From Hyalangium gracile (GTDB lineage Bacteria > Myxococcota > Myxococcia > Myxococcales > Myxococcaceae), in assembly GCF_020103725.1 (NCBI RefSeq), contig NZ_JAHXBG010000010.1:310001-374000 (forward strand): a stretch of 64,000 bases of DNA, read 5' to 3'. Numbering within the stretch: position 1 is the stretch's first letter; every line of letters begins with the position of its first letter. Below the pieces are notes generated by a model. The model saw only the letters and a program-made list of their open reading frames with translations, was not told the origin of the DNA and did not search any database. Made by a program: the position numbers and the translations under genes. This document shows positions 16,795 to 21,199 of this stretch, one piece after another.

Positions 16795-17277
16795 ATGACG
16801 CGACCTCGGAAGATGCTTCCCCTGTTGGGCGCCGCGGTGCTGGGCATCGCCGCGCAGGCCTGGGCCGGAGAGCCCGCCGCTGCGGCTCCTCGTCATCGCG
16901 TGCCCACGAAGGATGCGCCGCGCTACGTCATCGCGAACGGCAAGGGCGCGGCCACGCTGCTGCTCAATGCCTCCACGGGCGCCAAGGAAGCCTCGGTGAC
17001 GCTGCTGGAGCTGAACCAGGGCGCGGCGGTGCCCGAGCACGTGCACGAGTCGAGCGCGGAGATCCTCTATATCGAGGAAGGCGCCGCGGAGATGATGGTG
17101 GACGGCAAGAAGCTGCGCGTGGAGAAGGGGGACGCGGTGTACATCCCCCCGGGCGCGAAGCACTCGGCGCAGGTGGTCTCCCAGGAGACGTTCCGCGCGG
17201 TGCAGGTGTACGCGGGGCCGGGCCCCGAGCAGCGCTTCACCCAGGGCCCGCGCGCGGACAAGAAGGACGCGAAGTAG
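16795..17277 (+). CDS. Exported cupin-domain protein
   Basis: A 160-residue protein with a Sec signal (LLGAAVLGIAAQAWA, cleaved after about residue 24) and one cupin barrel. The metal-binding pattern is visible as PEHVHESSAEILYIEEG (His, His, Glu) and later IPPGAKHSAQV with the final His. Single-domain cupins act as dioxygenases, isomerases or sugar binders; export to the periplasm is the only added clue here. The tail is lysine/aspartate-rich. A GGGGT is found just before the ATG. Confidence 0.82.
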   Translation: MTRPRKMLPLLGAAVLGIAAQAWAGEPAAAAPRHRVPTKDAPRYVIANGKGAATLLLNASTGAKEASVTLLELNQGAAVPEHVHESSAEILYIEEGAAEMMVDGKKLRVEKGDAVYIPPGAKHSAQVVSQETFRAVQVYAGPGPEQRFTQGPRADKKDAK

Positions 17278-17792: not shown

Positions 17793-19229
17793 TCAGGCGA
17801 GACTGCGCGCAAGGCTGCCCAGCGTGGACATGGCGGCCTCGATGCGCGGCGACCACGGATAGCCGCAACTCAGGCGGATGAAGTGCGAGTAGCGCTGGCC
17901 CTGCGCGGAGAAGATGGGCCCGGGCGCGATGCTGATCCCCGCCTCCAGCGCCCGCGCGTGGAGCACGAGCGCATCCACCGTGGCGGGCAGCTCCAACCAG
18001 AGCAGCGAGCCGCCCGTGGGGCGCGTGACGCGAGTGCCCTCGGGGAAGTGCTCGGCGATGGCCTCCGTCATGCGCTCCACCTGCGCGGCGAGCCGGCGTC
18101 GGAGCGCTCGCAGGTGTCGGTCATACCCGCCTCCCTGGAGGAAGCGCGCGAGGGCGAGCTGGGGCAGCGTGGGCGTGGCGCCCGTCTGCGCGAACTTGAG
18201 CAGCTCCACGCGCTCGCGGTAGCGGCCGGGCGCCACCCACCCCACGCGGTAGCCCGGCGCCAGCGTCTTGGAGAAGGAGCCGCACAGCAGCACGCGCCCC
18301 TCGGTGTCGAACGCCTTGCAGGGTCGCGGGCGCTCCGAGCCGAAATAGAGGTCGCCGTAGATGTCGTCCTCGATGAGCGGCAGGTCCCGCTCGGCCAGCA
18401 GCTTCACGAGCCGCTGGCGGTGCTCCTCGGGCATGCAGCTGCCGAGCGGGTTGCTGAAGCTGGGCACCACCAGCACGGCGGCCACGCGCCGCTTGTCGAG
18501 CATGGACTCCAGCGCCTCCAGCTCCAGGCCATGGCGCGGGTGGCTGGGGATCTCCAGGGCTCGCAGCCCGAGCGCCTCGATGGCGCGGAGGGTGCCGTAG
18601 AAGGCGGGGGACTCGATGGCGATGGTGTCTCCCATCCTGGCCACGGCCAGCAGGCACAGGTGGATGGCCTCGGAGCCGCCACAGGTGGTGATGAAGTCAT
18701 CGGGCCCCAGCGCGCAGCCCCACTCCATCGCTCGGCGGGCGAGCTGTCTGCGCAGCTCGGGGCTGCCGGGCGGCATGTCGTAGCCCACCGCCGCCTCTCC
18801 CGCCTCGCGCGCCAGGGTGGCCAGCTCCCGGTTGAGGCGCTGGGTGGGCAGCAGCTCCGGCGCGGGCATCGCGGCCCCGAGCTGCACGATTCGTGGATCA
18901 CTCGCGGCCCGGTACACGTGCGCCACCAGGGCGCTGACGCTCACGGGGCTCGCGCTCGGGGCGGGGCGGGACACCTGGGGCTCGGCGGGCAGGGGCCGCT
19001 CGCGCCGGCGCACGTAGTGGCCGGACTGGGGACGCGTCTCGACGAGCCCCAGGGACTCCAGGTGGAGGTACGCCTGCAGCACGGTGGAGATGCTCACCCG
19101 CTCCCGGGTGCTGAGCTCTCGCACGGAGGGCAGGCGCTCTCCCGGCCGGAGGGTGCCAGCGGAGATGGCATCGCCGATCCGCTCGGCGACCTGCTCGTAC
19201 AGCTTGGCTCTGTGCGCGGTGTCCATCAT
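17793..19229 (-). CDS. MocR-type GntR/aminotransferase transcription regulator
   Basis: A 478-residue MocR/PdxR-subfamily regulator. The GntR winged helix covers residues 5-75 (LYEQVAERIGDAISAGTL, then RLPSVRELSTRERVSISTV). From about residue 105 it carries a fold-type I aminotransferase domain, with GSEAIHLCLLA, VPSFSNPLG, LIEDDIYGDLYF and the PLP lysine in LCGSFSKTLAPGYRVG near 320. MocR proteins sense PLP or amino compounds and usually control a divergent transporter or enzyme gene. Here the divergent target is the transporter at 19433, with a strong inverted repeat between them. Confidence 0.92.
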   Translation of the reverse strand: MMDTAHRAKLYEQVAERIGDAISAGTLRPGERLPSVRELSTRERVSISTVLQAYLHLESLGLVETRPQSGHYVRRRERPLPAEPQVSRPAPSASPVSVSALVAHVYRAASDPRIVQLGAAMPAPELLPTQRLNRELATLAREAGEAAVGYDMPPGSPELRRQLARRAMEWGCALGPDDFITTCGGSEAIHLCLLAVARMGDTIAIESPAFYGTLRAIEALGLRALEIPSHPRHGLELEALESMLDKRRVAAVLVVPSFSNPLGSCMPEEHRQRLVKLLAERDLPLIEDDIYGDLYFGSERPRPCKAFDTEGRVLLCGSFSKTLAPGYRVGWVAPGRYRERVELLKFAQTGATPTLPQLALARFLQGGGYDRHLRALRRRLAAQVERMTEAIAEHFPEGTRVTRPTGGSLLWLELPATVDALVLHARALEAGISIAPGPIFSAQGQRYSHFIRLSCGYPWSPRIEAAMSTLGSLARSLA

Positions 19230-19324
19230 GCGTGCCTCGACTCCAGGCCTCCGCTGGCCCGTCCTGGATCCTGGTGAATAACCACGGGCGCTCTGGCCGC
19301 CCAGGTACAGCTACAGCCCTTCTC

Positions 19325-19361
19325 GACCGGCACAGTTTCTCCCATGACAACTGTACCGGTC
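19325..19361. promoter_or_regulatory. Candidate MocR operator (13-base inverted repeat)
   Basis: Arms GACCGGCACAGTT (19325-19337) and AACTGTACCGGTC (19349-19361) pair at 12 of 13 positions around an 11-base spacer. A further GTACAG half-site lies just upstream near 19304. The repeat sits between the divergent MocR and transporter genes, 96 bases from one start and 72 from the other, which is where MocR regulators normally bind. Binding itself is inferred. Confidence 0.6.
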
Positions 19362-19432
19362 ACAATTCCAACCTGCTGAATCTGTTCTTGTGCCCATCCG
19401 AGGCGCATCGTTGGCGGGACTGGAGGTGGTCG

Positions 19433-20701
19433 ATGAAGGGGTCTGTCGCCAGCTTCGGATGGCTGCGCGGGGCCGTGGCCCGGTGGCTGCCGGCGCGGTG
19501 TACCGGCGCGCCCGGCACGGTGTCGCTGAAGCAAGGCACGCTGTGGAGCCACCGGCTGCGCTCGTGCCAGCACGTGCTCACCTGCCACGAGGGCCAGGTG
19601 TGGCTCACCCGCGAAGGGGATGCCGTGGACCACATCCTCTCGGTGGGAGACAGCCTGCGGCTGGAACAGCCTGGACTGGTGGTGGTGCAGGCGCTGCGGC
19701 CCGGATGCGTCGCGCTGTCCCGGGATACCCGTCGCGAGGACAAGGGCGCACGTGTCCAGAGCGGACAGCCGGTGACGCCGGGAGCCCGGCTGGGAGAGGG
19801 AATCCTGCTGGGCGTGCTGGCGGTGATCGCGTTCAGCCTCTCCCTGCCCGCCACGCGGGTGGCGGTGCCGGAGCTGGGAGCCACCCTGGTGGGACTGGGA
19901 CGGGCGGTGGTGGCGGCGGGGCTCGCCGGAGCGCTGCTCCTCATCCGGCGCGAGCGGCTCCCCGAGCGGCGGTACTGGCCGCGCCTGGCGCTCGTGGCCG
20001 GAGGCGTGGTGGTGGGCTTCCCGCTGCTCTCGGCGATGGCGCTGCGGTCCATGCCCTCGGCGCATGGGGCGGTGCTGGTGGGACTGCTGCCAGCGACCAC
20101 GGCGGTGGCGGCCGTGCTGCGAGCCAGGGAGCGGCCCTCCACGGGCTTCTGGCTGGCCTCCGCCGCGGGGCTGGTGTGCGTGCTGGCCTTCGCGATGGCC
20201 CAGGGGGCGGGCCGGCTCACGGCGGGGGACGGGCTGGTGCTGCTCGCGGTGGCGGCGGGAGCGCTGGGCTACGCGGAGGGCGGAGCGCTCGCGCGCGAGC
20301 TGGGAAGCTGGCGCGTCATCTGCTGGGCCCTGGTGCTGGCGGCTCCCGTGCTCGCCCCCGTGGTGGCGCTCTCCGTGGGGCTGCACGTGCTGGAGGCCAG
20401 TCCGCGCGCGTGGCTCGGCTTCGGCTACGTCTCCCTGGTGAGCATGTTCCTCGGGTTCTTCGCCTGGTATCGAGCCATGGCTCTGGGCGGGGTGGCTCGG
20501 GTGGGGCAGCTTCAGCTGATCCAGCCGCTGCTCACCCTCCTGTGGTCCGCTCTGCTCCTCGGAGAAACCGTGAGTCGAGGAACTCTCGGCGCCGCGCTGC
20601 TCGTGCTGCTGTGCGTGGTGGCGGGAGTGCGGAGTCGCGTCCAGCTCCCGCCCTCGAGCCTCTTCAGCGCTCGAAGACAGCCTGTCCGCCCACATCCGTG
20701 A
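19433..20701 (+). CDS. DUF2917-EamA fusion: DMT-superfamily transporter
   Basis: A 422-residue protein joining two modules. Residues 20-100 match DUF2917, a small beta-sandwich (VWLTREGDAVDHILSVGDSL). Residues 125-405 form about ten membrane helices in two EamA repeats, typical of drug/metabolite exporters of amino acids or related compounds. In other genomes DUF2917 is, as I recall, a separate small gene beside an EamA transporter, so the fusion looks notable. The frame is open without a stop between modules. ATG 19433 has GGAGG upstream. It is divergent from the MocR gene, whose target it probably is. Confidence 0.85.
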   Translation: MKGSVASFGWLRGAVARWLPARCTGAPGTVSLKQGTLWSHRLRSCQHVLTCHEGQVWLTREGDAVDHILSVGDSLRLEQPGLVVVQALRPGCVALSRDTRREDKGARVQSGQPVTPGARLGEGILLGVLAVIAFSLSLPATRVAVPELGATLVGLGRAVVAAGLAGALLLIRRERLPERRYWPRLALVAGGVVVGFPLLSAMALRSMPSAHGAVLVGLLPATTAVAAVLRARERPSTGFWLASAAGLVCVLAFAMAQGAGRLTAGDGLVLLAVAAGALGYAEGGALARELGSWRVICWALVLAAPVLAPVVALSVGLHVLEASPRAWLGFGYVSLVSMFLGFFAWYRAMALGGVARVGQLQLIQPLLTLLWSALLLGETVSRGTLGAALLVLLCVVAGVRSRVQLPPSSLFSARRQPVRPHP

Positions 20702-20800
20702 GCATCATCTTCATGTCAGAGTAGGCTGCTATGTCCCAACCTCTGTGGTAGGATACATCCGCTCGTGAGCAAGCGGGCGGTACCAAGGAGGAAGGTGGAG

Positions 20801-21199
20801 ATGGCCAAGACAACGGGTGGGGATCTGGTGCTGCAGCTGCTCACGGAGTTCCGGGAGCACCAGCAGGACTACAAGCACTTCAAGCACGACATGCTTCAGT
20901 TCAAGCACGAGATGCTGGAGTTCAAGCAGGACTACAGGCACTTCAAGTACGAGATGCTGGAGTTCAAGCAGGACATGCTGGAGTTCAAGCAGGACATGCT
21001 GGGCTTCAAGCACGACATGCTGGGCTTCAAGCACGACATGCTGGGCTTCAAGCAGACCATGGAGAAGCGGATGGACCTGCTTCACCAGGCCAATGTGGAG
21101 ACCCTCAGCTACCTGAAGCACATCGTGAAGATCCTCCAGCCAATGCGGAGTCAGCTGGACGACCACGAGCAGCGCCTGGTGATGCTGGAAAAGGAATAG
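20801..21199 (+). CDS. Heptad-repeat coiled-coil protein
   Basis: A 132-residue protein of unknown function. Residues 27-89 are nine tandem heptads of the pattern FKxDMLx, with F and M in the core positions, predicting a long regular coiled coil. This is followed by a second, irregular helical region (residues 90-132). No signal peptide or membrane segment is present. ATG 20801 follows AAGGAGGAAGGTGGAG; a GTG at 20765 is possible but less likely. It may be an oligomeric scaffold. The repeats are nearly identical at DNA level. Confidence 0.75.
   Translation: MAKTTGGDLVLQLLTEFREHQQDYKHFKHDMLQFKHEMLEFKQDYRHFKYEMLEFKQDMLEFKQDMLGFKHDMLGFKHDMLGFKQTMEKRMDLLHQANVETLSYLKHIVKILQPMRSQLDDHEQRLVMLEKE
20879..21067 (+). 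repeat. Nine tandem 21-base repeats
   Basis: Nine copies of a 21-base unit of the form TTCAAGCAGGACATGCTGGAG, coding the heptads FKHDMLQ, FKHEMLE, FKQDYRH, FKYEMLE, FKQDMLE, FKQDMLG, FKHDMLG, FKHDMLG and FKQTMEK. Units 5-8 are almost identical, so the copy number may vary by slippage in steps that keep the frame. Confidence 0.85.

Follow-up and report, generated by a model that had tools for sequence, protein, structure and literature searches.

A recurrent fusion of DUF2917 to an EamA exporter beside a divergent MocR-type regulator gene in Hyalangium gracile

In a stretch of 64,000 nucleotides of the Hyalangium gracile genome (the window) we analysed a gene that carries a DUF2917 domain and an EamA transporter part in one continuous frame (Table 1). 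The open reading frame has no internal stop, including around residue 105, and both parts score above the Pfam gathering cut-offs: 51 bits for DUF2917 (PF11142, cut-off 25.5) and 92.4 bits for EamA (PF00892, cut-off 28.2), the latter matched as two stretches, one per repeat. The single frame proposed in an earlier sequence-only reading was thus borne out. The sole NCBIfam match of the protein was to TIGR00950 (46.6 bits, far under the cut-off of 230.2); the YedA model (NF008432) gave no match at E 0.001. Across the genome of the window (81 contigs, 11.7 Mb) DUF2917 is matched above the cut-off once, and EamA in 27 stretches, situated by our own count in 15 places. A minus-strand shadow ORF of 489 aa (19226–20695) was taken as a mirror ORF of GC-rich DNA. 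Downstream, at 20765–21199 on the plus strand, a small protein without Pfam match shows heptad-like repeats, FKxDMLxFK; it is probably a coiled coil.

The gene divergent from the fusion gene codes for a MocR: its product combines a GntR helix-turn-helix with a fold-type-I aminotransferase domain. The NCBIfam models that fitted it best were the MocR-like YczR and PdxR, neither reaching its cut-off. Beyond the MocR gene, as seen from the fusion gene, a Cupin_2 protein is encoded (16795–17274, plus strand), a relative of which is situated near MocR in two other genomes, G041 and G042.

Table 1. Features of the locus in the window
Feature	Position	Strand	Remarks
Divergent MocR-type regulator, GntR and aminotransferase domains	17793..19229	-	PF00392 and PF00155 above cut-off
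Possible operator box 1, direct, CCCAGGTACAG	19300..19310	.	strict pattern
Candidate operator, boxes 2 and 3 as an inverted repeat, ACCGGCACAGTT-N11-AACTGTACCGGT	19326..19360	.	strict pattern
Shine-Dalgarno sequence of the fusion gene, GGAGGTGG	19422..19429	+	read from sequence
DUF2917-EamA fusion gene	19433..20701	+	422 aa plus stop, single ATG ORF
DUF2917 domain, predicted RmlC-like cupin fold	19526..19699	+	residues 32-89, PF11142
Linker (fusion junction)	19724..19795	+	residues 98-121
EamA transporter part, ten predicted helices	19778..20629	+	residues 116-399, PF00892

Considering the family of the window (Myxococcaceae), we found DUF2917 in 47 of 96 genomes, in 46 of them above the cut-off. 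An orthologue of the EamA part adjoins DUF2917, or is fused with it, in 14 of these 46; the orthologue was also seen without DUF2917 beside it in G081 and G082, and a 41% copy lies elsewhere in G033. Seven of the 14 genomes have the fusion, and they belong to two genera: Hyalangium, with the window's own genome (G000) and H. versicolor H56D21 (G041), and Archangium (G003–G007, among them A. lansinium, G003, and A. violaceum Cb vi76, G005). Both Pfam domains are above cut-off in each of the six other fused proteins, and Shine-Dalgarno-like sites precede all six genes. Five of six Archangium genomes searched have the locus, and all five have it fused. As the same fusion is present in six further genomes, a sequencing error can be discarded as the general cause. 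A frameshift or an assembly error that deleted a stop, a concern raised earlier for the region near residue 105, is extremely improbable: we found no point in its support, and in addition to the six genomes of the family an independent fusion exists in 12 Polyangiaceae genomes (see below). The outcome that would have spoken against the fusion, two genes in all relatives, was not obtained; two genes are present in the other seven of the 14 genomes.

In two of the unfused genomes (G042 and G067) the stop of DUF2917 shares an ATGA with the start of EamA, and the position is identical in both. In a third one, G079, an ATG in the EamA frame overlaps the DUF2917 stop, though the true EamA start may be further in; the remaining four have a spacer between the two genes. 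By eye, the spacers of G068 (L050) and G053 (L075) contain repeated copies of the ATGA junction, as if made by tandem duplication. Fused genes differ from overlapping ones by frame-restoring indels. Judging by these junctions, the ancestral state in the family seems to be an overlapping gene pair; with such a beginning a fusion is mutationally easy.

One could ask if the fused genes still produce a free exporter. In G004, G005, G007 and G041 the stretch from DUF2917 to the first helix has no ATG, GTG or TTG (in G005 a TTG coincides with the final residue of the domain), which makes it impossible for these four genes to yield a free exporter whose first helix is complete. One GTG is in frame in the window, at about residue 114, and an ATG or GTG is present in this stretch in G003 and G006; internal initiation may occur in these three genomes. 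The linker of the window protein is 14–15 residues longer than the linkers of its six fused relatives. For the five Archangium copies we obtained dN/dS values of 0.28 for DUF2917, 0.89 for the linker (only 10 codons) and 0.24 for EamA; for the window versus G041 the values were 0.45, 0.25 (9 codons) and 0.14, respectively. Both domains are under purifying selection. The nearly free evolution of the linker, as measured in the 10 Archangium codons, and its varying length argue against a strict mechanical gate.

In a tree of MocR proteins (48 rows) the unfused G042 groups with Hyalangium and separately from Archangium (90/93); this points either to two fusions in the family or to one fusion and one split; in the weaker EamA tree G042 pairs with the window (85/86). 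A single clade of fused rows was not rejected (AU p 0.178, with 28 of the 48 MocR rows), so one and two fusion events within the family are indistinguishable.

A serious rival to any functional reading is a neutral fusion: small indels would have linked co-expressed neighbours, overlapping by ATGA and under MocR control, into one frame, while the cupin does its work independently in the cytosol and the tether is without effect on transport. Such a history agrees with the overlap in G042, G067 and possibly G079, with the free evolution of the linker, with the frequent absence of EamA beside DUF2917 (see below) and with the inseparability of one and two fusions in the family. It accounts poorly for selection maintained on both domains within one chain, for the fusion in every Archangium genome with the locus and for a fusion to a different EamA subfamily that is intact at all 12 Polyangiaceae loci. 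We consider neutral fusion a real possibility, somewhat less likely than the reading preferred below.

The Polyangiaceae fusion deserves a closer description. DUF2917 was matched in 15 of 108 genomes of that family, in 14 of them above the cut-off. In 12 genomes the domain is within an open frame of 432–526 residues, which in every case runs stop-free into an EamA part and has a divergent MocR gene. The other two genomes above the cut-off (G930 and G904) have short frames; at the locus of G918, below the cut-off, neither EamA nor MocR was found. All four Polyangiaceae proteins scanned have an EamA part of the YedA type (NF008432; 318.7–345 bits, cut-off 270), and the remaining eight are 61–94% identical to a YedA-scanned one used as query. 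Since the window protein has no match to YedA, the Polyangiaceae fusion is independent; the window protein is closer to EamA proteins of cyanobacteria (41–55%, best segment) and Burkholderiaceae (43–46%). Linker length varies among the fusions. By eye, the Polyangiaceae linkers (L117, L129–L136) are Ala/Arg-rich and helix-like, with length varying apparently via short repeats.

Judged from these comparisons, DUF2917 has been joined to an exporter on at least two occasions, each time to a different one. That fusions recur across two EamA subfamilies favours a working link between the two parts. The earlier argument that the fusion indicates a direct link therefore gained ground: the fusion is real, it recurs, and a second, independent one joins DUF2917 to YedA.

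How general is the association with a transporter? In the window's family a divergent MocR gene is present at all 46 primary DUF2917 loci, one per genome (45 identified by tblastn, that of the window by Pfam); in the 47th genome, G080, with DUF2917 below the cut-off, the arrangement is non-standard. Four genomes (G065, G075, G076 and G078) have second copies of DUF2917 (L207–L210), two of which contain a stop; no MocR, LysR or EamA match was found within 3 kb of any of the four. In Burkholderiaceae, at least 278 of 399 genomes searched have a DUF2917 match. We inspected 50 loci from 48 genomes of this family (L140–L169 and L171–L190), 30 chosen as best matches and 20 for long open frames, and a divergent regulator was present at all 50: MocR at 17 and LysR at 33 (12 of the 33 LysR genes confirmed by Pfam). 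Of 16 Anaeromyxobacter-like loci, six had a MocR gene on the opposite strand, six a LysR gene and four neither of these. At 15 further loci (L116 and L118 being the same place) a MocR or LysR match was seen in 12 and neither of the two in L124, L138 and L139. DUF2917 is rare in samples of the Polyangium phylum (2/282) and of the Burkholderiaceae class (7/369), and a plasmid search with one 58-residue DUF2917 query gave zero matches.

Five of the 50 Burkholderiaceae loci (L141, L142, L144, L160 and L171) have a relative of the EamA of the window beside DUF2917, never fused; at these five the MocR gene is divergent from EamA, which is followed by DUF2917. An Asp/Glu racemase gene is next in the four loci read at this point, L141, L142, L144 and L171 (by Pfam in L144 only), and an aminotransferase-like match was observed further downstream in L141, L160 and L171. 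Racemase and aminotransferase neighbours hint at an amino acid cargo. An adjacent EamA relative is absent from 32 of the 46 genomes of the window's family, from 45 of the 50 Burkholderiaceae loci and from all of 20 further loci (the 16 Anaeromyxobacter-like ones and the four second copies). No more fusions were detected among the 50 Burkholderiaceae and these 20 loci in a search that detects only relatives of the EamA queries used. A downstream gene common to stand-alone DUF2917 genes was not evident at 15 loci viewed through a crude coding filter, which was empty for four of them. At L044 and L081 (G017 and G018) the stand-alone DUF2917 gene is followed by genes that, on reading of the sequence, resemble a methionine-type ABC transporter.

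As most of the DUF2917 genes inspected lack such an EamA neighbour, the domain is no obligate transporter part; the neighbour counts indicate that its usual partner is the regulator and that the exporter is an occasional third member. This changes part of the sequence-only reading. DUF2917 and EamA as separate neighbours beside MocR do exist in Burkholderiaceae, but at only five of 50 loci and in the order EamA, then DUF2917; the picture of DUF2917 as mainly a partner of transporters has to give way to one where a divergent MocR or LysR is usual and EamA neighbours are few.

With these counts at hand, one could speculate that DUF2917 is a co-sensor of the divergent MocR or LysR, which in the fused form would report export load or hold MocR at the membrane, as in trigger transporters. 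One of these regulators is indeed present at 46 of 46 primary loci of the Myxococcaceae, at 12 of 12 fusions in Polyangiaceae, at 50 of 50 inspected loci in Burkholderiaceae and at 12 of 16 Anaeromyxobacter-like ones, and it stays while the downstream genes vary. Still, one would expect any gene that a local regulator controls to lie divergent from it, and neither regulator was seen at the four second copies, at four of the 16 Anaeromyxobacter-like loci and at L124, L138 and L139; we think a co-sensor role unlikely. A bolder version takes the whole DUF2917 family as ligand-binding cupins that partner with regulators and modulate MocR or LysR across phyla, with the fusion being a one-protein trigger exporter that reports load; this appears slightly less likely still.

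The region between the MocR and DUF2917 genes contains candidate operator boxes. We compared 42 MocR-DUF2917 intergenic regions, nine of them from Polyangiaceae. The strict inverted pair, ACYRGYRCAG followed by CTGTRCYRG, is present in 32 of the 42, including all nine from Polyangiaceae; in eight of the 10 regions without it, one half or more can still be recognised, at up to two mismatches from the first or second box on one or both of the tested sides, and G063 and G137 retain the second box alone. The upstream third box (box 1 of Table 1) follows the strict pattern in 21 of the 42 regions and in none of the nine from Polyangiaceae. A degenerate pattern of the inverted pair matched at one place in the 11.7-Mb genome, on both strands because the pattern is palindromic; the reversed control gave zero matches. 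Two direct boxes and an inverted one, with TGT, are the commonest MocR layout as described in PMC5320631, where DMT-superfamily transporters are also noted in MocR (PdxQ) regulons. In PMC8707732 an EamA-like gene is shown to be repressed by a divergent regulator of the Lrp type.

A model of the full-length protein had a mean pLDDT of 80.6 and a pTM of 0.67; the ends and the linker (101–115, pLDDT <50) were modelled poorly, and the residue blocks of DUF2917 (31–90) had pLDDT values of 86–95. The model has the ten-helix DMT fold with both N and C termini inside. Predicted inside loops contain 21 Lys and Arg residues versus four in the outside loops (loops padded by five residues). Fold comparison (VIA-align) of the predicted transporter part gave LicB (7paf, Z 25.7) and YddG (5i20, Z 23.4). 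The full-length fusion protein had no sequence relative in the PDB at E 0.01.

For the DUF2917 part of the window model the fold matches were small cupins (3fjs, Z 11.0; 5j4g, Z 10.6) and a beta domain from vitamin K carboxylase (Z 11.8). The same two groups, with Z of 11–12.5, were matched by the DUF2917 part of a Polyangium fusion; in that AlphaFold model the membrane part had a mean pLDDT of 48.4, and the DUF2917 domain alone was used. An RmlC-like double-stranded beta-helix is thus seen on predicted models only, with Z of 10–12 to small cupins. A PDB profile search with DUF2917 alone returned 13 designed 'Pizza' propellers over ~24 residues; no stretch passed by itself, and we took these matches as chance. 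DUF2917 is modelled as a cytosolic RmlC-like cupin joined to a ten-helix transporter. Full-length model and charge distribution both fit the cytosolic beta domain that had been proposed from the sequence.

The invariant residues in 18 DUF2917 sequences are C, G, W, T, E, D, D and G, and no conserved histidine was found among the invariant or nearly invariant columns. Metal-binding cupins have conserved metal-binding histidines in their cupin motifs; DUF2917, judged by these 18 sequences, lacks this mark of theirs. Small cupins are often dimers, and several of the fold matches are small cupin proteins; the domain could then be a structural tag that merely dimerises or stabilises the exporter. 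Such a tag would leave unexplained both the pairing with a regulator and the invariant polar residues C, T, E, D and D, and we rate it as improbable.

The reading we prefer, tentatively and with somewhat less than even confidence, is that the protein exports an amino-type metabolite under MocR control and that its built-in cytosolic cupin senses this cargo or holds it. The gene would produce a single inner-membrane EamA exporter with an N-terminal, cytosolic, cupin-fold DUF2917. The divergent MocR, of a PLP-binding family and probably a sensor of amino compounds, would act at the inverted-repeat operator between the genes and turn the exporter on as the compound accumulates. The cupin, loosely tethered at the cytosolic face, would bind the same class of compound and either pass it to the transporter or tune transporter activity. 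Here the action of MocR at the operator, the amino type of the cargo and the modulation of transport by the cupin are what we infer. The exporter-with-cupin reading draws on the fusions of seven genomes and the independent one of 12 Polyangiaceae, with intact frames; on purifying selection, the confident cupin model, the inside charge and the conserved inverted pair; and on the MocR layout and DMT regulons of PMC5320631 together with the EamA-DUF2917-racemase loci of Burkholderiaceae. Weighing against it are the many DUF2917 loci devoid of EamA, the nearly free linker, the apparent ancestral overlap, the lack of a conserved histidine and the absence, by strict pattern, of the third box from 21 of the 42 regions.

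No function is known for DUF2917, and our literature search found it named in a single paper, PMC6520446, where a table puts the Geobacter gene GSU3506 (DUF2917) first among those upregulated in strain ACLHF versus ACL, 17-fold, with RarD third. Our literature search found no paper joining MocR with EamA and none joining a cupin domain with a drug metabolite transporter; a looser search gave nothing on point among the matches listed. Pairing with a regulator and fusion to an exporter hint that DUF2917 ties regulation to export. Taken together, the cupin prediction, the frequent pairing with a regulator and the independent fusions to exporters of two kinds give DUF2917 its first testable role and a predicted fold. 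If the domain senses cargo for the exporter or for the regulator, it would provide a simple and soluble tool for identifying the substrates of EamA exporters and MocR regulators.

Among known systems, the EamA/DMT relatives (PF00892; 5i20, 7paf) share with the window protein the ten-helix fold and the N-in topology; the window protein differs by its N-terminal cupin-fold domain. Exporters of the YedA type (NF008432) are joined to DUF2917 beside MocR in Polyangiaceae, while the EamA part of the window is not YedA. In the PdxQ MocR regulons MocR adjoins a DMT gene, as in the window, and operator boxes with TGT are present (PMC5320631); DUF2917 and a fusion are unmentioned in the parts of that paper drawn on here, and the window has, by pattern, one local target. 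RmlC-like cupins (3fjs, Reut_B4087; 5j4f/5j4g, HP0902; 7eyj, ppnP) have a fold like that predicted for DUF2917 (Z about 10–12, rmsd 1.9–3.8), but DUF2917 has no conserved histidines and is tethered to a membrane protein; against DUF2917 a vitamin K carboxylase beta domain reaches scores equal to those of these cupins (Z 12.5 and 11.8). Finally, stand-alone DUF2917 proteins (PF11142) have the same domain and mostly the same kind of divergent regulator as the window; they are usually small, free and without a transporter, whereas the copy in the window is fused to one.
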